DNA of 60,636 bases from Terriglobales bacterium. Lineage in GTDB: Bacteria > Acidobacteriota > Terriglobia > Terriglobales > Acidobacteriaceae. Positions 6,687 through 18,645 of this stretch are shown here, piece after piece (position 1 is the stretch's first letter; every line of letters begins with the position of its first letter). Below the pieces are notes generated by a model. That model made no database searches, was not told where the DNA came from, and worked only from the letters and a program-made list of their open reading frames with translations. The position numbers and the translations under genes were made by a program. The stretch covers positions 1 to 60,636 of the forward strand of contig DASPRM010000147.1 in NCBI GenBank assembly GCA_035624455.1, given 5' to 3'.

Positions 6687-7169
6687 TCATCGCCCGTACT
6701 TGCCCATCACCTCGGTCTGCGCCAGCACTCGTGCTTGCTTCATGGCCGCGTCCACTTCTTTGCGCGTGGCGCCGGCCTTCAAACCCAGCGGTGCTTCCAG
6801 GGCGAACAGTTTGAAATAGTAACGATGCGGTTTTCCTGGCGGCGGGCAGGGACCGTTATATCCGATCTTGCGGAAATCATTTTGTCCTTGACGCCCGCCG
6901 TCGGCCAGATCGCGGTCTTTGGGGAAGCCCTGCTGCAATTGCCGCTTCTCGGCCGGAAGGTCGTAGATCAGCCAGTGTGTCCACAAGCCGACCGGAGCGT
7001 CCGGGTCGTCTGCGATGAGCACCAGGGCGCGAGTCCCCTTCGGCGGCTCACCCCAGGAAAGATCGGGGGAGATATCGGCTCCATCGCAGGTGAACTGTTT
7101 GGGAATATTGCCCTGGGGATTGAAAGCAGTGGTCGAAAGTTGAAGACCAGTGGAAACTTGAGAGCTCAT
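6687..7169 (-). CDS. YbhB/YbcL-type phosphatidylethanolamine-binding (PEBP / Raf kinase inhibitor-like) protein
   Basis: 160 aa. Family motifs are DPDAPVGLWTHWLIYDLP (about 56-73) and the CPPPGKPHRYYFKLFAL strand-loop (about 108-124), which form the anion-binding pocket of PEBP proteins. Biochemical roles of bacterial members are poorly defined. The frame is open further upstream to 7538, but ATG 7169 is preceded by AAAGGAG at 8 nt and gives the normal family length. An in-frame GTG upstream would add a signal-like hydrophobic stretch (LVLLVLACVSS), so a secreted longer form is possible but lacks a good ribosome site. Divergent from the FNR-like gene. Confidence 0.85.
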   Translation of the reverse strand: MSSQVSTGLQLSTTAFNPQGNIPKQFTCDGADISPDLSWGEPPKGTRALVLIADDPDAPVGLWTHWLIYDLPAEKRQLQQGFPKDRDLADGGRQGQNDFRKIGYNGPCPPPGKPHRYYFKLFALEAPLGLKAGATRKEVDAAMKQARVLAQTEVMGKYGR

Positions 7170-7475
7170 CGTCGATGCTCCTTTCCAGTGCGGTGGTGGA
7201 AGTTGCGAATGGGTGGAGGGGACGGACGAAACGCAAGCCAATACCAGCAACACAAGCTGGGAGAACCTTGGAGTAACACTCGCGCGGCTCACCCGCCTAT
7301 TGTCACCCGGAAGCTTGGCCAATTCCAGGGGTCCAATCCCGCAGGACAGCGGAAGAAATCCGGTAGAGGCGAACCACCAGGAAACTCCCTCTTCGCGCAC
7401 CGCAACTGCCTTCCGGTTGCGGCTGGCGGATTCGCCATCGCCTGGAACCGGAAAGTCAGCCCGCTCACAACTACA

Positions 7476-7491
7476 TGTGAGATTGATCACA
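7476..7491. promoter_or_regulatory. CRP-type operator 1 (perfect TGTGA-N6-TCACA)
   Basis: TGTGA-gattga-TCACA is an exact match to the classical CRP consensus. It lies about 200 bases before the FNR-like gene start, between the divergent PEBP and regulator genes. The regulator's recognition helix has the CRP-like residues expected to read this sequence, so autoregulation is plausible. Confidence 0.7.
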
Positions 7492-7523
7492 GCTATCCCT
7501 TCCAGCCCGGCGGACACTAACCT

Positions 7524-7539
7524 CGTGATACTGATCACA
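7524..7539. promoter_or_regulatory. CRP-type operator 2 (CGTGA-N6-TCACA)
   Basis: CGTGA-tactga-TCACA differs from the CRP consensus at one outer base. It is centred 48 bp from the perfect site at 7476, so the two lie on roughly opposite faces of the helix. Confidence 0.6.
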
Positions 7540-7688: not shown

Positions 7689-8411
7689 GTGCTTTCACCT
7701 TACGGACTGGACATCATAGAGAGTTGTTTTACCTGTAAGCTGCGGGCCGAGCGGCTATTCTGCGACCTTCCCACCGCTGCCCTGCAATCCTTTGAGGCGA
7801 TCAAGTATGCGACGGCCTACCCCAGAGGCGCAGTGTTGTTTGTGGAAGGCCAGGCTCCCCGCGGAATCTACGTGCTGTGCAAAGGCCGAGTGAAACTTTC
7901 CATCTGCTCCACCGATGGCAAGACTCTGATCCTCAAGGTCGCCGAACCGGGAGAGGTCCTGGGACTGAGCGCTACCGTTTCCGGCAAAGCCTACGAGCTG
8001 ACCGCCGAGACCCTGGACCCCTGCCAGGTCAATTTCGTGAAACGGGAAGATTTCCTGCGCTTCCTGCGTGAGCATGCGGACGCTTGCTTCCGCGTGGCCG
8101 AGCAGTTGAGCGACAAATACAATGCCGCCTGTCACGAGATTCGTTCTCTGGGCCTGTCGCATTCTGCAGCGGAGAAATTAGCCAAACTGTTGCTTGACTG
8201 GACCTCCAAAAATGGCGAGCAGAATAAACAGGAGCCCCGTCTCAAGCTGGCGCTGACGCATGAAGAAATCGCGCAGATGATCGGTACCTCACGCGAGACG
8301 GTGACTCGGCTGTTTGCCGATCTCAAGAAAAAGCAGATTGTGCAGGCGAAGGGCTCAACCCTGCTCATCCGCAACAAGGGCGCGCTGAAAGCGCTGGCCA
8401 GCAATTCCTGA
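7689..8411 (+). CDS. FNR-like Crp/Fnr-family regulator with CRP-like DNA recognition helix
   Basis: 240 aa. GTG start at 7689 with AGGAGGT 6 nt upstream. N-terminal cysteines Cys13, Cys16 and Cys25 precede a cyclic-nucleotide-binding-fold domain (about 30-130). Cys112, in the strand LDPCQVNF, aligns with the fourth FNR cluster ligand (E. coli Cys122). A long dimer helix (about 130-150) leads to a winged HTH (about 185-230). Four cysteines in FNR-like positions suggest an oxygen- or NO-sensing 4Fe-4S cluster. The recognition helix reads SRETVTR (201-207). R-E-x-x-x-R is the CRP pattern for TGTGA sites, whereas FNR uses E-x-x-S-R. CRP-type boxes lie before this gene and before the cytochrome genes downstream, making it the likely local regulator. 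A terminator follows at 8435-8464. Confidence 0.88.
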   Translation: MLSPYGLDIIESCFTCKLRAERLFCDLPTAALQSFEAIKYATAYPRGAVLFVEGQAPRGIYVLCKGRVKLSICSTDGKTLILKVAEPGEVLGLSATVSGKAYELTAETLDPCQVNFVKREDFLRFLREHADACFRVAEQLSDKYNAACHEIRSLGLSHSAAEKLAKLLLDWTSKNGEQNKQEPRLKLALTHEEIAQMIGTSRETVTRLFADLKKKQIVQAKGSTLLIRNKGALKALASNS

Positions 8412-8479: not shown

Positions 8480-8495
8480 AGTGACTGCAGTCACT
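8480..8495. promoter_or_regulatory. CRP-type operator 3, perfect 16-bp palindrome
   Basis: AGTGA-CTGCAG-TCACT is a perfect 16-base palindrome with the GTGA-N6-TCAC core. It lies about 40 bases before the ATG of the truncated FNR paralogue, a position where a bound regulator would overlap or touch the promoter. Confidence 0.68.
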
Positions 8496-8528: not shown

Positions 8529-9032
8529 ATGGAAAGCGCAAATCAACCCAGCTGTTTTGCATGTGAGCTGCGCCCGACGCGGCTGTTTTGCGACCTTCCG
8601 GCCAATGCACTAGATGCCCTTGACCACATCAAGGACATCTGCAGCTTTGCGCGAGGAGCTACTTTGTTCCAGGAGGGCCACCCCGGCCGAGGCGTTTTTC
8701 TTCTATGCCGGGGACGGGCTAAGCTCTCCATCTCCTCCGATCGCGGACAACGTCTGCTGCTTCGCATCGCGGGTCCGGGCGAGATCCTCGGCTTGAGCGC
8801 CAGCCTGGCGGGTCTGGATTACGAACTCACTGCCGAAGCCCTCGACCCTGTCCAGGTCGCTTTCATCCGGCGCAAGGACTTGCTCAACTTCCTTCGCCAG
8901 CATCGACAAGCCTGCATGCAGGTAATCCATTTCCTCAGCGAGGATCTGCACTCCGCCTACGAGCGAGTCCGCTCCATGGGCTGGGCTCACACCCGCATTC
9001 GCACGTCCCCCTCCACGATGAGAGTGCAGTAA
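8529..9032 (+). CDS. Truncated FNR-like paralogue lacking the DNA-binding domain
   Basis: 167 aa from ATG 8529; an in-frame GTG at 8481 falls inside the operator and has no ribosome site. It is clearly a paralogue of the gene at 7689, sharing the Cys-rich start (SCFACELRPTRLFCDLP against SCFTCKLRAERLFCDLP), the sensor domain and the dimer helix. It ends with an unrelated 15-residue tail exactly where the winged HTH should begin. No HTH remnant was seen in any frame in the next 300 bases, so this is loss rather than a simple frameshift. The residue matching the fourth cluster ligand is Val in LDPVQVAF. It could be a decaying gene or a DNA-binding-deficient partner that titrates the full-length protein by heterodimerising. 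Confidence 0.7.
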   Translation: MESANQPSCFACELRPTRLFCDLPANALDALDHIKDICSFARGATLFQEGHPGRGVFLLCRGRAKLSISSDRGQRLLLRIAGPGEILGLSASLAGLDYELTAEALDPVQVAFIRRKDLLNFLRQHRQACMQVIHFLSEDLHSAYERVRSMGWAHTRIRTSPSTMRVQ

Positions 9033-9166: not shown

Positions 9167-9182
9167 TGTGATCTACGTCACA
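9167..9182. promoter_or_regulatory. CRP-type operator 4 (perfect TGTGA-N6-TCACA)
   Basis: TGTGA-tctacg-TCACA is an exact CRP consensus match, about 300 bases before the decaheme cytochrome gene. Confidence 0.7.
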
Positions 9183-9471: not shown

Positions 9472-10500
9472 ATGACTTGGAAACGAGCAGTTCTTGTCGT
9501 TGCCATGCTGGGTATCGCCTTCACTGTCGAGGCTCAGCTCAATCCTGCTCCCTCAGCGGGCGTTTCACTGAGGGCCAATGCCGTCAACCAGAACTTGGAT
9601 AAAGCGGCTTCCCCACCGCAGCAGGCAAAAGCACCCGCCAAGCCGGACGGCGATTACGTGGGCAGCGATACCTGTATCGCCTGTCACGAAGATCAGAACC
9701 ACCGCTTCCAGAACACGGTCATGGGGAAGGTAATGGCCCATCCGCATACCGCGGATGAAGCTCGCGGCTGCGAGTCCTGTCACGGTCCGGGCAAAGCGCA
9801 CGTGGAAGCCGGGGGCGGCAAAGACACCATTCCCGTCCGCTTCACCAGTGATTCCAAGAACACCGTGGCGGAGAAAAATGCCGCCTGCGTGCAATGCCAT
9901 GCTCGCGGCAACCAGCTCTTCTGGAAGGGCAGCCCGCATGACTCGCGCCACATGGCTTGCGTGGATTGTCACCAGGCGCATCAAGTGGTGACCCAGACTC
10001 TATCTCAGGAAGCCCGTTTCCTTTCGCCACTCAGCACCAACCGAGGCTTGAAGAAGGTGCAGCCCGAACTCTGCCTGGACTGTCACCAAATGCGCCGCGC
10101 CCAGTTGCAGCGCTCCTCGCATATGCCGTACCGCGAAGGGAAGGTGACCTGCACCAGTTGCCACAACCCACACGGCTCCCCCAATCCCAGCCAGCTCAAG
10201 CAGAGCACGGTCAATGAGAATTGCCTCGCCTGCCACACCGAGCGGCGTGGTCCATTCCTTTGGGAGCATCCGCCGGTGATGGAGAACTGTGTCAACTGCC
10301 ATGAAGCGCACGGCACCAACAATCCGCAATTGCTGAAGATGCGCATGCCCAGGGTGTGCGACTCCTGCCATGACTCCAGCCGCCACCCCACGACTCCAAC
10401 CCTGCTCAATTCCGTCCGCGACTTCAATCGCGGCTGCACGAATTGCCATTCCTACATCCACGGGTCGAACCACCCGTCGGGGAACTTCTTTCTGCGCTGA
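9472..10500 (+). CDS. Decaheme c-type cytochrome, MtrA/DmsE family
   Basis: 342 aa, close to MtrA length (about 333). A signal peptide of about 22 residues is followed by exactly ten CXXCH motifs (first CIACH near 70, last CTNCH near 325) spread along the chain. Family members are periplasmic decaheme wires that insert into an MtrB-type barrel and carry electrons across the outer membrane for metal or DMSO reduction, or inward for Fe(II) oxidation. The ribosome site AAAGGAGGT lies about 12 nt before ATG 9472. The MtrB-like porin gene starts 14 nt after its stop, the usual mtrAB-type pairing. Two CRP-type boxes lie upstream. Which direction electrons flow cannot be told from sequence. Confidence 0.93.
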   Translation: MTWKRAVLVVAMLGIAFTVEAQLNPAPSAGVSLRANAVNQNLDKAASPPQQAKAPAKPDGDYVGSDTCIACHEDQNHRFQNTVMGKVMAHPHTADEARGCESCHGPGKAHVEAGGGKDTIPVRFTSDSKNTVAEKNAACVQCHARGNQLFWKGSPHDSRHMACVDCHQAHQVVTQTLSQEARFLSPLSTNRGLKKVQPELCLDCHQMRRAQLQRSSHMPYREGKVTCTSCHNPHGSPNPSQLKQSTVNENCLACHTERRGPFLWEHPPVMENCVNCHEAHGTNNPQLLKMRMPRVCDSCHDSSRHPTTPTLLNSVRDFNRGCTNCHSYIHGSNHPSGNFFLR

Positions 10501-10514
10501 GAGAGGAGAGCGAA

Positions 10515-13205
10515 ATGAAAATTCAGAGATCAAGACAATCTGCATACCTGGCAGTGTTCGCCCTCCTTTTCTGCTCGCTCGCCCTGTTCGCTGAAGACAA
10601 AGATAAAGACAAGGACAAGCCCGCCGAGGAGAAGCCTGCCCAGTATGGTGTCATCGAATTCGGAGCGCGCTACTCCTGGGGCAATGTCGACGGTCGTCAG
10701 GACCTTCTGCTGGGTCCCGGCGGTCCAGCAGCCACTGGAAATCCGTCGCTCGCCCCAGGCTGCCTGGGTTGCGGAACTTCGTTGGACCCCGTGCTGCGTT
10801 TCTCCAAATACGGAGAGTATCGCGATATCCGCAATGGTTTCTTCGTTCGCAAACTCGATGCCACCTTCGATAACCTGCTCAACACCAAGTACTACGCGAT
10901 CCTGCAGTCGCAAAAGTCGATCTACCGCGACCAGAGCTATCTGGCAACCTTCGGACAGTACGGCAAGTTCAAGGTCCAGTTCCGCTACGATGAGATCCCA
11001 CACGTCTACAGCGACGTTACCCGCACTCTCTTTACCAAGACCGCCACGGGTGTTTGGAGCTACCCCTCAGCAATCCGCTCCACCTTACAGGCCAGCACGA
11101 CCGCCAATCTCCCCTCGCTGATCGCCGGCACAGGCACCAATGCTCAGCAGGGAGTGGTAACAAATTCCAGTCTCATCACCCCGAGCATATTACGCAAAGC
11201 GGGCACCTTCCTGGCTTCCTACGATCTCAGCGAGAATCTCAACATCAACGGTTCGTTCTTCCGCGAAGCGGAGGATGGCTACCGGCCGATTGGGCTGATC
11301 ATGAACTCCAGCCCCAGCGCCAGCGCCACTTCCGGCTTCGGTGTCGAACTGCCGGAGACGATCAGCTACTTCAACAATCTGGCGCGTATGGGGGCGGAAT
11401 ACGGCAAACACGACTGGGCGGTCCAGGGCGCCTTCGTGGGTTCCTTTTTCGAACAGAACATCCCCTCGATGACCTGGGACAACCCCTTCCTGCTGACGCA
11501 GCCTGCCGGCTCTGCTGCCATCTCCAATCCCACCACCGGGCGCATGACGCTATATCCCAACAACCAGGCTTACTACATCAATCTCGCCGGCGCCGCCGAC
11601 TTGGGGAAGTGGGTACGCTTGATGGCCAGCATCAGTCCTGGCTGGCTGCGTCAGGATGATTCCTTCCTGCCTTACACTACCAATGGCGCGATCACCGGAT
11701 GCGGCGGGGTGACCGGTGCGCCCTGCACGACGACTGCCTCTCTCCCAGCTCCGAGTCTGGAAGGCAGCAAGCAGACTCTGGCCATGAACTATACCTTTGT
11801 CACCCTCCCCTGGAAGCAATTCCAGATAAAGGCCATGTATCGTCACTACGACTACAACAACAACACCCCGGTGCGTACTTTCACTCCGACCGAAGGTGAT
11901 GCGGCCTCGCCGGTTGTCGCCGGTGTGGAAAACACTCCTTTCGGCTTCAACCGCAAGAACTTCGATTTAACCGGGAACTGGTACTTTGCCAAGAAGAGTT
12001 CAGCCAAGATCGGCTACCAGGCCGAATGGATGGATCGCTCACACCGCGACGTCGAGCACTCATTGGAGAACACTATCCTCGGCGCCGTCGACGTCGCCTA
12101 TTGGAAGAACCTTCTGTTCCGGCTGTCTTATCGCCACTCAAGTCGCAAGCCGGATGAATATCAGGACGATAATTCCAGTGACCCGGTCACTGGCGCTCCC
12201 ATTACCTGCACTGATCCCAGCGTAGCCTTTACCGCCGACCAACGCTGCAGCCGCAGATTCGATGAGGCGCACAGAGTGCGTAACCGCGCCGACGGCCTGA
12301 TCGAGTACACTCCCCTGGGTTCGTTGACCCTCTCCGCTTTCGGCGGAACTATCCAGGATGACTACAACCAGCGCGGCGATACTAACAGCCCCACCGCGCT
12401 GAACTTCCTCACTGGAAGTGCGGCGACCACGAACCCCTATTACCTTTATGGAATCCTGAAAGACATCTCCTACAACTATGGTTTCGGCGCAGATTACGCC
12501 TTTTCGCCGCGCCTCTCGTTTTTCGCTGAGTATTCTCACGAGCACTACTACAGAAGGCTGATCTCTCGTAACCGCACCCCAACCAGTGGCACCCAGACCA
12601 TTCTGACCTGCACCGGCTGCGATACAGCCAACAATGATTGGGAAAGCACAACCCCGGAAAAGGTCGACATCTGGACGGTGGGAACCGACACCAATTTGAA
12701 TAAGAAGGCGTATTTTTCGACCTATTATTCGTTGTCGGCGGGACTCGCTAACACCCTCTCGCGGTTCCTGGGCGATCCCACCATCACCACCGGTCCGAAC
12801 GCGTTCGTGTTAGTGGGCACCAGCGCCGCCGTAAGCTACCCAGAGTCAACCGCCCGCCAGCATGAAGTGGTGGCGGTCTTCAAGTACAAGCTCACCAACC
12901 ATCTCATGCCCAAATTCGAGTTCCGCTATCAGCAATTCGACAACAAGGACTTCCAGACCTCCCCCATGTCGCAGTACATGGGCTGCGCTAGCGCTGCTAC
13001 GGGGACCGCGGTGCCGGGATGTCCCATCCGAGTGGTCAGCAGTACGACCTCGCCCACGCCGGTCCTGAGCCCCAACGCGCCTATCAGCTTCTACCCATAT
13101 TTCCAGGTCGTCGACAACTCGTCGGCGCGGTACTTGTTCCTGGGCGTAGACCAGCCGTCCTACCATGCCTACTACGTATCGGCGACTCTGGAGTTCCACT
13201 TCTAA
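10515..13205 (+). CDS. MtrB/PioB-family outer-membrane beta-barrel protein
   Basis: 896 aa. ATG 10515 has GAGAGGAGAG directly upstream; a longer frame overlapping the cytochrome gene is ignored. A signal peptide (1-26) is followed by a charged Asp/Lys stretch, then many alternating amphipathic strands, and the chain ends in Phe (LEFHF) as barrel proteins do. A CLGC pair lies at Cys83/Cys86; an N-terminal CXXC is characteristic of MtrB proteins of metal reducers. A second CXXC (CTGC) lies near 699. It would sheath the decaheme cytochrome encoded immediately upstream. At about 900 aa it is longer than Shewanella MtrB (about 700). No surface cytochrome of the MtrC/OmcA type follows. Confidence 0.88.
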   Translation: MKIQRSRQSAYLAVFALLFCSLALFAEDKDKDKDKPAEEKPAQYGVIEFGARYSWGNVDGRQDLLLGPGGPAATGNPSLAPGCLGCGTSLDPVLRFSKYGEYRDIRNGFFVRKLDATFDNLLNTKYYAILQSQKSIYRDQSYLATFGQYGKFKVQFRYDEIPHVYSDVTRTLFTKTATGVWSYPSAIRSTLQASTTANLPSLIAGTGTNAQQGVVTNSSLITPSILRKAGTFLASYDLSENLNINGSFFREAEDGYRPIGLIMNSSPSASATSGFGVELPETISYFNNLARMGAEYGKHDWAVQGAFVGSFFEQNIPSMTWDNPFLLTQPAGSAAISNPTTGRMTLYPNNQAYYINLAGAADLGKWVRLMASISPGWLRQDDSFLPYTTNGAITGCGGVTGAPCTTTASLPAPSLEGSKQTLAMNYTFVTLPWKQFQIKAMYRHYDYNNNTPVRTFTPTEGDAASPVVAGVENTPFGFNRKNFDLTGNWYFAKKSSAKIGYQAEWMDRSHRDVEHSLENTILGAVDVAYWKNLLFRLSYRHSSRKPDEYQDDNSSDPVTGAPITCTDPSVAFTADQRCSRRFDEAHRVRNRADGLIEYTPLGSLTLSAFGGTIQDDYNQRGDTNSPTALNFLTGSAATTNPYYLYGILKDISYNYGFGADYAFSPRLSFFAEYSHEHYYRRLISRNRTPTSGTQTILTCTGCDTANNDWESTTPEKVDIWTVGTDTNLNKKAYFSTYYSLSAGLANTLSRFLGDPTITTGPNAFVLVGTSAAVSYPESTARQHEVVAVFKYKLTNHLMPKFEFRYQQFDNKDFQTSPMSQYMGCASAATGTAVPGCPIRVVSSTTSPTPVLSPNAPISFYPYFQVVDNSSARYLFLGVDQPSYHAYYVSATLEFHF

Positions 13206-13595: not shown

Positions 13596-15599
13596 ATGAA
13601 AAATTTCATATTCGTCCTCATATCTCTACTGCTTTCGATCACGACGGTTTCGGCCGCAAGTAAACCCGCTCCTGCGGACAAAAGCGCCGAGTGCCTCGCT
13701 TGTCACAGCGACGTAAATCTGGTCAAAGAAGTAAACGGGAAAAACGTCAGCCTGCGGGTGGATGAGCAGAAATTCAAGAACTCGATTCACGGCAGCATGT
13801 TCGGCTGTACCGATTGCCACACCGACGTCAAGGGCTTCCCGCATGATCCGGCCCCGGCGAAGGTGAGTTGCCAGACCTGCCACGCTGACCAGGTCACACA
13901 ATACGAGAACAGCCTGCACGCGCAGGCTCGCAAGAATGGCGACACCAAAGCCGCCACCTGCCTCGATTGTCACGGCAGTGCTCATGAAATTGTGGTCGCC
14001 AGCGATCCCAATTCACCGGTGAACCACGTCAATATTCCCAAAACCTGCGGAAGCTGCCACGGCCAGAAGTTCGTCATGGAAGCCAGCGGTCACAGCGCTG
14101 CCCAGTTCGTCTCCTATGAGGAGAGCGTGCATGGTAAGGCGGTGGCTGCGGGTTCGGAAAAGGCCGCCGTGTGCACCGATTGCCACGGAGCGCATGAAAT
14201 CCTACCCGCCGGTAATCCCAAATCGCCGATCTTCAAATTCAACGTGCCCAATACCTGTGCCCAGTGTCACAGCGGAGTGAAACAGGAATTCATGGGCAGC
14301 ATTCACGGGCAGGCAGTCAGCCGCGGAAATTGGCAGGCTCCCGTGTGCACCGATTGTCACGGGATCCACGCCATCAAGTCGCACGTCGATCCTAATTCTT
14401 CCGTTTCTGCGCAGGCCCTGGCGCGAACCACCTGCGCACGCTGTCACGAGGGAGTGCGGCTCTCACAGGAATTCGGAGTCGCCGGACGCCGCGCTTCGAC
14501 TTATCTGGCCAGCTATCACGGACTGGCATCGAAGCTGGGCTCCAATGTGGTTGCGAACTGCGCCAGTTGCCACGGGGTTCACAACATCCTGCCCTCGTCC
14601 GACCCCAAGTCCACGATCAACCAGGCCAACCTGGTCAAGACATGTGGCCGGTGTCACCCTGGAGCGAGCGAAAACTTCGCGCGTGGCAAGATCCACGTCG
14701 GTGCACCCCTCTCCGCCGATATGGGCAGCATCGCTGTGCGCTGGATCCGCCGCTTCTATCTCGCCATGATCTTCGCGGTGATCGGCGGCATGGTGTTGCA
14801 CAACTTCCTGATCTGGAGAAAGAAGGCTGTCGAACACCGCAAGAATGGCCACCGAGCAGTCACGCGCATGGACAAAAACCAGCGCATACAGCACCTGCTG
14901 CTGCTGTCTTCCTTCTTCGTACTGGTCATCACCGGCTTTGCTTTGAAATATCCCGATTCCTGGTTCGCCAGCATGCTGGGACTAGGCGAAAAGGTGCGCG
15001 GCATCGTCCACCGTGCCGCCGGCGTGGTGCTGATCGGGGTATCCCTGTACCACCTCGCCTACCTGATTGCGGACCGCAAAGGCCGGCGCATTATCTCAGA
15101 CATGCTGCCCGAACCAAAAGATGCCTGGGACGTTGTGGGGGTGCTGCGCTATTATCTCGGTCTCGGCAAGCACAAACCTGAATTTAAACGCTTCACTTAT
15201 GCGGAAAAGGCAGAGTACTGGGCTTTAGTCTGGGGCGCGGTGGTGATGGCCACAACCGGACTGATGTTGTGGTTCAAGATGACCGTGGGCCATCTGCTGC
15301 CGCGCTGGTGGCTCGACATAGCTACGGCTATCCACTTCTATGAAGCCGTGCTGGCCACGTTAGCTATTCTGGTCTGGCATTTTTACCAGGTGATTTTCGA
15401 TCCGGATACGTATCCAATGAACTGGGCCTGGTATGACGGGAAGATGTCGCTGGAGCACTATTCAGAAGAACACAATCTGGACCGGCAGACGATTTCCGAG
15501 GCGATCCGAGCCGAAGCCGCTGAGCAGCCGGCGCAGGCGGAAGACGAACCGGTTCACTCGGGCAGCGTTGAAGAATCAGCACCGAACTTGAAAAACTGA
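13596..15599 (+). CDS. Inner-membrane quinol oxidase: 11-heme cytochrome c fused to cytochrome b (CbcL-like)
   Basis: 667 aa from ATG 13596, chosen because a clean signal peptide (1-21) begins there; the ribosome site is weak. Residues about 30-370 carry eleven CXXCH motifs, several in the repeated form CTDCHGxH. The C-terminal part, from about 380, has five hydrophobic helices with His residues (RIQH, VHR, YHLAYL, IHFYEA, WHFYQVIF) typical of FdnI/HydC-type di-heme cytochrome b, ending in a Glu-rich tail. The same fusion in Geobacter CbcL oxidises menaquinol and passes electrons to the periplasm for low-potential extracellular electron transfer; CbcL has nine c hemes. It lies between the mtrAB-like pair and the ImcH-like gene, 56 nt before the latter, and is probably co-transcribed with it. 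Direction of electron flow is inferred. Confidence 0.88.
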   Translation: MKNFIFVLISLLLSITTVSAASKPAPADKSAECLACHSDVNLVKEVNGKNVSLRVDEQKFKNSIHGSMFGCTDCHTDVKGFPHDPAPAKVSCQTCHADQVTQYENSLHAQARKNGDTKAATCLDCHGSAHEIVVASDPNSPVNHVNIPKTCGSCHGQKFVMEASGHSAAQFVSYEESVHGKAVAAGSEKAAVCTDCHGAHEILPAGNPKSPIFKFNVPNTCAQCHSGVKQEFMGSIHGQAVSRGNWQAPVCTDCHGIHAIKSHVDPNSSVSAQALARTTCARCHEGVRLSQEFGVAGRRASTYLASYHGLASKLGSNVVANCASCHGVHNILPSSDPKSTINQANLVKTCGRCHPGASENFARGKIHVGAPLSADMGSIAVRWIRRFYLAMIFAVIGGMVLHNFLIWRKKAVEHRKNGHRAVTRMDKNQRIQHLLLLSSFFVLVITGFALKYPDSWFASMLGLGEKVRGIVHRAAGVVLIGVSLYHLAYLIADRKGRRIISDMLPEPKDAWDVVGVLRYYLGLGKHKPEFKRFTYAEKAEYWALVWGAVVMATTGLMLWFKMTVGHLLPRWWLDIATAIHFYEAVLATLAILVWHFYQVIFDPDTYPMNWAWYDGKMSLEHYSEEHNLDRQTISEAIRAEAAEQPAQAEDEPVHSGSVEESAPNLKN

Positions 15600-15655: not shown

Positions 15656-17212
15656 ATGAGTGATGCCAATCCGCCGCAAGCAGGCGAGTCCGTTCCGTCG
15701 CCGCCCCCCGCACCGTCTTCTACCAGCGGTTTGTTTCGCAATCCCATCAGCCTGATTGGCGCCGCCATCGCCGCGGTGGCAGCGGCCAATATTATCTTTT
15801 TGGTCATCATCGACCTGATGTCCGGACATCCCAGTCCCTACATCGGGATTCTGGCCTACATGATTGCGCCGGCTTTTTTGGTGCTGGGCCTGGTGCTGAT
15901 CGCGGTCGGCATCCTCCACGAGCGCAGTCGCCGGCGCAAGGGGATTGCTGCCGCACTTCCTCGTTACCCGCGAATTGATCTCAACAATCCTGCCCAGCGC
16001 AGTGCTTTTGCTTTTTTTGTTACTTTCACCCTGGTATTTGTCCTCATCAGTGCGGTGGGAAGTTATAAGGCTTACGAATTTACCGACTCAGTGCAGTTCT
16101 GCGGCCAGCTCTGCCATAGCGTCATGCATCCGGAATTCATAGCCTATTCACAGTCCCCGCATGCCCGCGTGGCCTGCGTCGATTGTCATGTGGGAGCGGG
16201 CGCCGGTTGGTATGTGCGGTCGAAATTATCCGGCGCTTACCAGGTCTACGCGGTTGCTTTTCATAAGTACCCGCGTCCTATCCCCACTCCGGTCTCGAAC
16301 CTGCGCCCGGCACCGGAAACCTGCGAGCAATGCCACTGGCCCAAGAAATTTTATGGCGCACAACTGAAAGTCTTCACCCATTTCGGGACTGACGAAAAGA
16401 ACACCCCGCGGCAGATTCGCATGCTCATCAACACCGGCGGCGGCGATCCCAATACTGGTTTGCCGACGGGCATCCACTGGCACATGAACATTTCCAACGA
16501 AATCACCTACATTGCCACCGACAAGCAGCGCCAGACTATCCCCTGGGTACAGGCTAAAGACGCCCAGGGTCGGATCACGGTTTATACAGCAAAGGACGGT
16601 GGCTTGACCCCGGAGCAGGTGCAGAAGGGGTCTCGCCGTCGCATGGATTGCGTGGACTGCCATAACCGTCCCACGCACATTTACGTCCCTCCCGACCGCT
16701 CCGTGGATGAGTCCATACTGGCGCGCAGGATCGATGCGTCCTTGCCTTACATCAAGCAACAGGCCGTCAATACGCTCACCGGTCAGTACAACACCACGGA
16801 ACAAGCCCGCGAGGCTATCGCCACTGATTTACAGAAGTTCTATCAAACCAAATACCCTGATATTTACTCGTCCCGCCAACTGGAAATCCATAACGCTATC
16901 TCCGAGCTCCAGCGTATCTACAGCTCCACCATCTTTCCCGAGATGAAGGTGGACTGGCGGGTCCATCCCAACAATATCGGTCATTTCTATTTTCCGGGAT
17001 GCTTCCGTTGTCACGATGGCAATCACGTCAGCGCGGAGGGCAAGGTCCTCAGCAAAGAATGCAACATCTGCCATACCGTTATTGCCCAGGTTGAAAGTGG
17101 ACAGCCTGTGATCGGCAGCGCTCAGGGGATCGCCTTCAAACACCCCGTGGACCTCGGAGACATGACTGCGGTGAGCTGTAATGACTGCCATACCGGCGGC
17201 GTCGGACCGTGA
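15656..17212 (+). CDS. NapC/NirT-type seven-heme membrane cytochrome (ImcH-like)
   Basis: 518 aa; ATG 15656 has GGAG 7 nt upstream. Three membrane helices lie at about 29-54, 60-88 and 115-141. After the last come seven heme sites: one unusual CX3CH (CGQLCH, followed by SVM) and six CXXCH (CVDCH, CEQCH, CVDCH, CFRCH, CNICH, CNDCH). NapC/NrfH-type proteins oxidise quinol in the inner membrane, with a Met near the first heme acting as ligand. Three helices plus seven hemes is the layout of Geobacter ImcH, used with high-potential acceptors. It follows the CbcL-like gene in the same direction, so one operon may carry both a low- and a high-potential quinol exit. There is no dedicated reductase such as NapA or NrfA nearby. 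Confidence 0.87.
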
Positions 17213-17282: not shown

Positions 17283-17306
17283 CCCGTGAGTGGCCTCACA
17301 CCTAGA

Positions 17307-17322
17307 AGTGACGCATATCACG
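17307..17322. promoter_or_regulatory. CRP-type operator (AGTGA-N6-TCACG)
   Basis: AGTGA-cgcata-TCACG keeps the full GTGA-N6-TCAC core and lies about 80 bases before the radical SAM gene start, ahead of its strong GAGGAGGT ribosome site. Confidence 0.62.
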
Positions 17323-17397
17323 GCCCGATGTATGGGCCTCCCTTACTCTCCTGATACGGAAACCCCAAGCGGAGCGGAGCCGCCAGAGGAGGTTGGG

Positions 17398-18645
17398 ATG
17401 AATTCCGATAACAGCGGTCATACAGCAAACGCCCTTAAGCCACGCCTGGTTTTTTGGGAGGTCACCAAGGGCTGCAATCTGCGCTGCATCCACTGCCGCG
17501 CCACGGCCACGGAATTGAGCTCTCCTACCGACCTTCCCACCGCGCGAGCCCTCGAGATCATCGATCAGATCGCCAATTTCGCCAATCCCATCCTGGTTCT
17601 CAGCGGCGGCGAGCCGCTGTATCGGGCAGACATCTTCGACCTCGCCTCGGCGGGCGCGCGGCGCGGCCTGCGAGTGGCGCTGGCGACCAACGGAACGCTG
17701 GTGACCAAAGATGTCGCGCGGCGTATCGTCGATGCCGGCATCAAGCGTGTTTCTATCAGTCTCGACGGCGCCGACGCTCTCACCCACGACACTTTTCGTG
17801 GCATTCCTGGCGCGTTTGATGCGGCCGTGTACGGTCTGCGCAATCTGAAAAAACTAGGCATGTCGGTGCAGATCAACATGACCATCGCCCGACACAATGC
17901 CCGCCAGCTTCCCCAGGTCCTCGAACTGGCTCGCAATCTCGGTGCGGATGCCCTGCATACCTTCCTGCTGGTTCCAGTAGGCTGCGGCGTGGATATCGCC
18001 GCCGAACAGATGGTCCCACCCGACGAATATGAGGAGATGCTGAACTGGTTCTACGATCGCTCCAAAGACGGCGACATCGAACTGAAAGCGACCTGCGCAC
18101 CGCATTATTTCCGCGTCGTGCGTCAGCGTCGGGCGGAGGAGCGGCGTGCGGCGATGGCAGCCGGGGCGACTTACCTGCAAGCCGCCAATCCCAGCGCAAT
18201 CGGCCCGGACGAGATGAGTATGCCGGGAACAAATGCCGTGGTGTTTCGCCCCAAGGGCAATCACACCGGCCACCCCACCACTCATCCCGCTGGGCACCCT
18301 GACGGCATGAATGCCATGACCAAGGGCTGCCTGGCCGGCACCGGCGTGTGTTTCATCTCCCACGAGGGCGAAGTGTTTCCTTGTGGATATCTGCCGGTTC
18401 TTGCCGGAGACCTGCGTAGGAAATCATTTGCTGAAATTTGGAACGACTCTGAGGTCTTTGAGCAGTTGCGCGAAACCAACAACCTGAAAGGTAAATGCGG
18501 CTGCTGTGAGTTCCGCAATGTGTGCATGGGATGCCGCGCTCGCGCCTTTGCCGCCACCGGCGATTACCTGGCCGAGGAGCCATTCTGCGTGTACGAGCCC
18601 AAGTTGCCCGTCCTCAACAATTCGAAAGTGCCAGCGGCTCGTTGA
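17398..18645 (+). CDS. Radical SAM/SPASM protein, AhbD/NirJ family (heme or heme d1 synthesis type)
   Basis: 415 aa from ATG 17398, preceded by AGAGGAGGT. The radical SAM cluster motif is Cys26-x3-Cys30-x2-Cys33 (KGCNLRCIHC), followed by the SAM-binding GGEPL segment. The C-terminal half has the SPASM-type cysteines (GTGVC, FPCGY, KCGCCEFRNVCMGC, PFC) and the ATGDYLAEEPFC ending typical of NirJ and AhbD. AhbD converts iron-coproporphyrin III to heme in the siroheme route; NirJ acts in heme d1 synthesis. No nitrite reductase genes are nearby, so heme supply for the cytochromes is the better guess. Oddity: a His-rich loop, GNHTGHPTTHPAGHPDG, near residues 286-302. Its own CRP-type box and flanking repeats suggest a separate transcript. 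Confidence 0.82.
   Translation: MNSDNSGHTANALKPRLVFWEVTKGCNLRCIHCRATATELSSPTDLPTARALEIIDQIANFANPILVLSGGEPLYRADIFDLASAGARRGLRVALATNGTLVTKDVARRIVDAGIKRVSISLDGADALTHDTFRGIPGAFDAAVYGLRNLKKLGMSVQINMTIARHNARQLPQVLELARNLGADALHTFLLVPVGCGVDIAAEQMVPPDEYEEMLNWFYDRSKDGDIELKATCAPHYFRVVRQRRAEERRAAMAAGATYLQAANPSAIGPDEMSMPGTNAVVFRPKGNHTGHPTTHPAGHPDGMNAMTKGCLAGTGVCFISHEGEVFPCGYLPVLAGDLRRKSFAEIWNDSEVFEQLRETNNLKGKCGCCEFRNVCMGCRARAFAATGDYLAEEPFCVYEPKLPVLNNSKVPAAR

Follow-up and report, generated by a model that had tools for sequence, protein, structure and literature searches.

A candidate acidobacterial FNR-type regulator with CRP-type boxes and a conserved HTH-less tandem twin

A Crp/Fnr regulator is encoded at 7689-8411 of the window, which is the whole 60,636-nucleotide stretch of DNA from a Terriglobales bacterium that was analysed, and it is followed by a shorter paralogue without a helix-turn-helix (HTH). 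The domains, the CRP-type boxes around the gene and the conserved pair can be read directly, and they suggest a sensor-plus-partner pair that may control respiration. On balance, we lean towards an acidobacterial FNR-type regulator that acts on CRP-type boxes, with a respiratory and heme regulon and a DNA-binding-deficient twin. The more unusual feature is the HTH-less tandem twin, which lies beyond the coordinates of the finding in the original prediction; a cluster sensor with CRP-type boxes is already known from Bacillus, and HTH-less antagonists are already known among LuxR proteins. The main features of the window are as follows.

7476..7491, unstranded: perfect CRP-type box TGTGAGATTGATCACA, 213 bp ahead of the regulator start
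7524..7539, unstranded: second box CGTGATACTGATCACA, 1 mismatch, at -165 of the regulator
7689..8411, forward strand: FNR-like Crp/Fnr regulator, 240 aa (domains, cysteines, recognition helix and model described below)
8480..8495, unstranded: palindrome AGTGACTGCAGTCACT, 2 mismatches from the box, in the regulator-twin gap
8529..9032, forward strand: HTH-less tandem twin, 167 aa, paralogue directly 3' of the regulator
9167..9182, unstranded: perfect CRP-type box TGTGATCTACGTCACA, between the twin and the cytochrome genes
9472..10500, forward strand: DmsE-family decaheme c cytochrome, putative first target (TIGR03508, 244.9 bits, cutoff 192.2)
10512..13205, forward strand: MtrB/PioB-type outer-membrane barrel (PF11854, 263.4 bits; TIGR03509, 198.7 bits, under its cutoff of 240.05)
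13596..15599, forward strand: multiheme c / b561-type membrane cytochrome (PF14522, PF01292)
15656..17212, forward strand: NapC/NirT-NrfH-like multiheme cytochrome (PF03264)
17285-17300: 1-mismatch box CGTGAGTGGCCTCACA, ahead of a possible internal start near 17398 of the AhbD-like gene
17290..18645, forward strand: AhbD-like radical SAM/SPASM protein (TIGR04545, 476.8 bits, just under its cutoff of 500)

The regulator gene begins with a GTG codon preceded by GGAGG. Profile searches detected cNMP_binding, HTH_Crp_2 and Crp domains in its product with E values of 7e-18 to 2e-9 and scores of 64.8 (PF00027), 64.2 (PF13545) and 37.6 bits (PF00325), each above the gathering score. The protein is a member of the Crp/Fnr superfamily, with a cNMP-binding-like domain and a C-terminal Crp-type HTH. 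Its nearest NCBIfam families were FtrB, CRP and FnrL, with every score far under the cutoff; membership was reached neither for the FNR family NF008365 (46 bits, cutoff 228), nor for FnrL NF045989 (59.4 bits, cutoff 300), nor for the CRP family NF008732 (72 bits, cutoff 266). An AlphaFold model was obtained with a pLDDT of 86 and a pTM of 0.73, the first 20 residues having a pLDDT of about 65. Among the structural matches listed, this model came closest to A. fischeri holo-FNR (Z 25.3, rmsd 2.5, 225 aligned residues), in a tie with CRP types such as Clr and GlxR, both cAMP-type regulators (Z 24.5-24.6). The closest named relatives come from metagenome genomes of Terriglobia/Acidobacteriaceae. 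The gene, the N-terminal cysteine trio, the CRP-like helix and the boxes of the original prediction all stood up in our analysis; its placing of C112 at an FNR ligand position did not.

The recognition helix R202-E203-T-V-T-R207 aligned with R-E-T-V-G-R of CRP and with V-E-T-I-S-R of FNR. It is CRP-like at R202, E203 and R207, and R202 and T206 stand where FNR has V208 and S212. The TGTGA-N6-TCACA boxes noted around the regulator are present as perfect copies at 7476 and 9167. Boxes with at most 1 mismatch numbered 7 in the window vs. 1.51 expected, a count reached in 0 of 100 shuffles, while FNR-type sites, defined as TTGAT-N4-ATCAA following the original prediction, were at chance level in the window (2 vs. 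1.44 expected), in line with the prediction of CRP-type rather than FNR-type sites. We consider it very probable that the regulator acts through CRP-type boxes. According to the available text of PMC545781, Arg180 marks the HcpR proteins that have TTGTGA-N6-TCACAA sites, whereas the site is FNR-like for two orthologues lacking this Arg.

The boxes recur at the same place in relatives. In 47 loci (the window, L010, L013, L015 and L039-L081), 35 perfect boxes were found within 300 bp upstream of the regulator, spread over 30 loci, giving a density of 2.48/kb vs. 0.011/kb elsewhere, or about 220-fold. Other perfect boxes numbered 0 inside the gene, 13 in the 1.5 kb downstream and 6 across the other 537 kb. 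The control pattern gave 0 perfect hits in these loci, and the FNR-type TTGAT-N4-ATCAA was absent from the 300 bp upstream in all 47, the window included, even at 1 mismatch. When boxes with at most 1 mismatch were counted in the 33 twin-bearing loci, 21 had one in the 300 bp upstream of the regulator and 14 had one in the regulator-twin gap, with both places occupied in 3 loci and neither in 1; thus, a box precedes the regulator or the twin in 32 of 33. The gap was occupied in 11 of the 12 loci that had no box upstream of the regulator, and 23 of 33 had a box within 400 bp after the twin. Because just 3 of the 33 loci carry a box at both places, the placement appears to move between subgroups from regulator to twin. 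The two positions are nearly mutually exclusive, as if feedback had switched gene between subgroups. Class II promoter spacing, inspected by eye, showed nothing clear.

In the regulator's own genome, 15 perfect boxes were found vs. 1 for the control, two of the 15 lying inside the window. Boxes are located about 200 bp or less from the starts of hemE, cydA, gltA, nuoB, glyS and a ccsB-like gene, the last of which scores below its NCBIfam cutoff. Further neighbours are a PAP2-like ORF, a cNMP-only gene and a biotin-carboxylase-like ORF (named by eye), as well as a short ORF preceding an adhE-like aldehyde dehydrogenase. One box falls inside a metallo-beta-lactamase-fold ORF, one is close to an ORF that belongs to no family, and no neighbour gene was identified for another. 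The glyS, metallo-beta-lactamase-fold, PAP2-like and biotin-carboxylase-like ORFs by these boxes have no obvious anaerobic role, which speaks against the proposed regulon. An HTH-less cNMP-domain gene without cysteines in this genome (G000:C80, L164:1685-2158) has a perfect symmetric box, TGTGATTGCAATCACA, at 1501, 169 bp upstream, and possibly belongs to the same network.

A genome of another genus, G015, contains 27 perfect boxes vs. 1 for the control. The neighbours of the 26 boxes besides the regulator's own were inspected, and part of them were compared with protein families; in one set of 10 neighbour proteins, 3 had no family. The box recurs in G015 at cydA, hemE, the ccsB-like gene and glyS, whose proteins are 74-77% identical to those of the first genome, and further neighbours include ResB, a hemerythrin, an Rrf2 regulator/E1-dehydrogenase pair and two histidine kinases. 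The boxes between the Rrf2-type regulator and the E1 dehydrogenase gene and beside the hemerythrin gene (L189, L195) hint at links to iron-sulfur or oxygen/NO handling. In both genera, a perfect box immediately precedes glyS, which encodes glycyl-tRNA synthetase beta (L162, L190), with no obvious respiratory link. Across 41 genomes, boxes numbered 8-27 in the 8 with an orthologue (at least 68% identity), 2-18 in the 18 with paralogues only (a match at E<=1e-40 without an orthologue), and 0-7 in the 15 without any match at E<=1e-40, which mostly belong to another family, so that kinship confounds this last comparison. The difference between orthologue and paralogue-only genomes gave p 1.4e-4, uncorrected for kinship and genome size. 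The conserved placement of boxes by regulator or twin and the candidate respiratory and heme targets support the reading of CRP-type sites.

The regulator has cysteines at positions 13, 16, 25, 64, 73, 112, 133 and 148. We aligned 51 family members with E. coli FNR and CRP from NC_000913 in three MAFFT modes. The original prediction had placed C13, C16 and C25 at FNR cluster ligands; the N-terminal trio is indeed present, but C25 has no exact FNR counterpart, because the spacing is C-x2-C-x8-C in the regulator vs. C-x2-C-x5-C in FNR. The claim for C112 failed, since in all three modes this residue aligns with S119 of FNR and Cys92 of CRP (Cys93 when Met is counted). FNR C122 falls on N115 in the printed alignments, and a Cys at this position was found in 1 of 172 aligned rows. 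CRP itself is not known to need a cluster, and thus a Cys at its Cys92 position says little.

Conservation was then surveyed in 180 aligned rows, in which the window regulator is counted twice (as REG and as L001) and some sequences are cut or frameshifted; 8 such rows were dropped from the tree, leaving 172. Position 64 is Cys in 136 of 138 rows with the trio and in 3 of 42 without it, full-length and HTH-less proteins taken together. The same association appears in full-length rows (104/106 vs. 2/30) and in HTH-less rows (32/32 vs. 1/12). For C112, the counts are 76/137 vs. 13/41 overall, 74/106 vs. 11/29 in full-length rows and 2/31 vs. 2/12 in HTH-less rows. Fisher tests for a link with the trio, which ignore kinship, gave p 2e-33 for C64 and p 0.012 for C112. 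On a quick tree of the 172 rows, the trio changed 10 times, C64 7 times and C112 21 times; 4 of the 10 trio changes coincided with a loss of C64 on that branch, and 0 with a loss of C112. An independent-pairs test of the C64-trio link found 2 well-supported pairs, which gives it weak phylogenetic power, and position 64 is R or E in two distant proteins that have the trio.

Because a Cys at 64 accompanies the N-terminal trio, C64 is the better candidate for the fourth ligand; C112 was rejected as such on the alignment, the row counts and the tree changes. We consider C64 a fairly likely cluster ligand, and it is likely that the regulator carries an Fe-S cluster. The model has strands at 59-65 and 112-118, and with the usual strand order of the cNMP jelly roll, the C64 strand would adjoin the strand equivalent to that of FNR Cys122. 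We also rejected C133, whose counterpart is invariant in 27 aligned twins yet variable in full-length proteins; it shared no branch changes with the trio on the tree. The regulator has no Cys after 148, and the C-terminal Cys cluster motif of Bacillus Fnr is absent from it.

The twin was taken to start at a conserved ATG at 8529, although the ORF list gives a GTG at 8481. It contains a Cys trio with the same spacing (C9/C12/C21, C-x2-C-x8-C), C60 as the counterpart of C64, the cNMP fold, the dimer helix and a short basic tail. Its only profile match is PF00027; it has no HTH, and no HTH remnant was found after it in the window. Twins stand 3' of 33 of the 34 regulators that have at least 78% identity and at least 900 nt of room, and the lone exception (L084) is a frameshifted copy. 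Their frequency falls to 1/17 at 65-78% identity, 6/21 at 45-65% and 0/28 below 45%; 6 of the 7 more distant twins were examined, and all lack the trio. Presumed second copies (L004, L011, L012, L014, L091, L092, L170, L171) were left out of this count, in which others may remain; stretches of N interrupt two of the 33 twins, and one regulator (L082) carries a frameshift. In a genome that is represented twice (L014, L065), the twin has lost the trio yet retains the C64 counterpart.

Pairwise dN/dS values among 28 of the 33 close twins ranged from 0.016 to 0.445 with a median of 0.218 (93 of 378 pairs in the dS range), vs. a median of 0.059 for 27 regulators (108 of 351 pairs). The twin thus evolves about 4 times faster than the regulator and is maintained under looser constraint. 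Twin lengths are 160-172 aa, and the tails that could be parsed (26 of 27) contain 2-6 K/R and no D/E. The twin is very probably functional. It has the sequence features of an HTH-less antagonist, namely the lack of an HTH, a retained dimer helix and a position next to a full-length relative, and we tentatively regard a heterodimer antagonist of the regulator as possible.

The regulator shares the N-terminal Cys trio and the Crp/Fnr fold with the FNR of E. coli and A. fischeri, the latter ranking first among the structural matches listed, and differs from E. coli FNR in the trio spacing and at the Cys122 position described above. With E. coli CRP it shares the R-E-T-V-x-R helix, a central Cys and the TGTGA-N6-TCACA-type box, whereas CRP lacks the N-terminal trio. 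CRP E72 and R82 contact cAMP; their counterparts in the regulator are an alignment gap and Y102, so these contact residues are not shared.

According to the available text of PMC3520743, B. subtilis Fnr binds an oxygen-labile 4Fe-4S cluster through three Cys and Asp141, and an FNR consensus, TGTGANNNNNNTCACA, is given in the accessible part of PMC8151001 (Table 1, citing the B. subtilis Fnr regulon paper). As far as these texts go, the Fnr proteins of B. subtilis and B. cereus resemble the regulator in TGTGA-N6-TCACA-type sites and in a cluster with a non-classical ligand set, predicted in our case. The Bacillus cluster cysteines lie in a C-terminal extension, whereas those of the regulator would be N-terminal plus the proposed C64, and the HTH-less twin found beside the regulator goes unmentioned for Bacillus Fnr in the same portions of the two papers. 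Since Bacillus Fnr has a cluster and CRP-type boxes, with Asp141 as the fourth ligand in B. subtilis, both a hybrid protein and ligand drift have precedents. The hybrid reading of the original prediction is supported for the CRP-type sites but not for C112, and describes a kind already known. Desulfovibrio HcpR is likewise a CRP/FNR-type regulator with TTGTGA-N6-TCACAA sites and Arg180, but its regulon (hcp, sulfate reduction) is a different one. The FNR of At. ferrooxidans is also short of one ligand Cys (available text of PMC6659574). In the accessible text of PMC11655674, TrlR and CerN are HTH-less relatives that form inactive heterodimers or block DNA binding (TrlR/TraR, CerN/CerM). These pairs belong to the AHL-sensing LuxR family, whereas the twin is a Crp/Fnr protein with cysteines; the adjacency seen here is not claimed for TrlR. 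Narrow search terms returned nothing on an HTH-less Crp/Fnr twin or an acidobacterial FNR among the matches listed, which is weak evidence that no such paper has been published.

In the mechanism that we propose, C13, C16 and C25 together with C64 would hold an oxygen- or NO-labile Fe-S cluster, and the holo homodimer would bind TGTGA-N6-TCACA boxes at its own gene pair and in the respiratory and heme regulon. The twin would form a heterodimer with the regulator that has a single HTH and restrains, damps or retunes the response, as TrlR does with TraR. A box before the regulator or the twin would place one of the two genes under feedback control. The cluster, the heterodimer and the signal are predictions from sequence, and a cluster sensing O2 or NO in the regulator is plausible. 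A more elaborate version, which we find somewhat doubtful, would be an FNR-type sensing system of Acidobacteriota not described before, with the fourth ligand moved from beta-8 (FNR Cys122) to the neighbouring beta-3 (C64) and with every regulator of this group paired with a cluster-bearing HTH-less twin; in the heterodimers, the second cluster would tune the oxygen level at which genes for extracellular electron transfer and heme are switched.

The scenario of an ordinary FNR geometry, with C112 as the fourth ligand and the twin incidental, draws on the 74 of 106 trio-bearing full-length rows with this Cys and on its presence in every relative of at least 72.9% identity printed in register, the broken copies L082 and L084 excepted. 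However, position 112 varies among C/A/S/G/T/V/I in the trio-bearing full-length rows and is rarely Cys in trio-bearing HTH-less rows, none of its tree changes is shared with the trio, it aligns with CRP Cys92 and FNR S119, and the L039-L088 sample itself favours C112, DPCQVNFV having been among the six search patterns. This scenario is therefore quite improbable. Crp/Fnr thiol switches such as CprK exist, and four conserved cysteines with a spacing unlike that of FNR would also fit zinc; nevertheless, the trio occupies the place of the FNR trio, holo-FNR shares the top rank among the structural matches, and a respiratory and heme regulon suits an O2/NO sensor, making a zinc site or a thiol/disulfide redox switch unlikely. 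The boxes may be shared, because the paralogues L002 and L003 of the same genome carry the same SRETVTR helix, and the 18 paralogue-only genomes still contain boxes. That the boxes are bound by a paralogue or by several Crp/Fnr proteins, the regulator being only one of them, is rather unlikely, given the higher box counts with an orthologue and the perfect boxes close upstream of the regulator in 30 of 47 loci.

For the twin, decay of a tandem duplicate into a pseudogene might be considered from its missing HTH and its higher median dN/dS (0.22 vs. 0.06). We rejected this explanation as highly improbable, since the adjacency is kept in 33 of 34 close orthologues, the lengths are conserved, purifying selection is evident, a box precedes the twin in 14 of 33 loci and no HTH remnant follows it in the window. 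Alternatively, the twin may act alone as a homodimeric sensor, a cluster donor or a protein-protein regulator, and its basic tail could contact another partner; the retained dimer helix and the strict adjacency favour pairing with the regulator, and we hold independent action to be possible but not favoured. The reading of a sensor with a DNA-binding-deficient partner also fits the neighbourhood: among the 25 close-orthologue loci that offer at least 4.5 kb of room, 23 have homologues of the window's cytochrome genes on the downstream side.

Acidobacteriota are abundant in soil, and narrow search terms returned no worked-out oxygen switch for them among the matches listed; with a box motif and a candidate regulon, such a switch becomes testable. 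If true, an FNR ligand that moved naturally to the neighbouring strand would illustrate the evolution of cluster sensors, and a conserved HTH-less FNR twin would represent an extra layer of control, so far documented for LuxR-type regulators in the available text of PMC11655674.

Several further observations were made at related loci. A paralogue group (L003, L126-L128, L130, L132) lacks the trio and C64 and keeps the SRETVTR/SRETVSR helix; its members may read the same boxes, either constitutively or in response to another trigger. A PEBP (YbhB/YbcL) gene at 6687-7538 on the reverse strand is divergent from the regulator. Since 13 of the 43 loci L039-L081 have an upstream homologue of it, the intergenic boxes may serve this gene too. 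In a sister group at 72-77% identity (L015, L066-L079, L081), the twin is absent and an AhbD-like radical SAM gene lies directly 3' in 13 of 16 loci, each of these 13 genes with a box (at most 1 mismatch) around its start. The MAG palsa_357 contains both an 86% regulator copy with a twin (L057) and a 76% copy with neither a twin nor an AhbD-like gene (L069).
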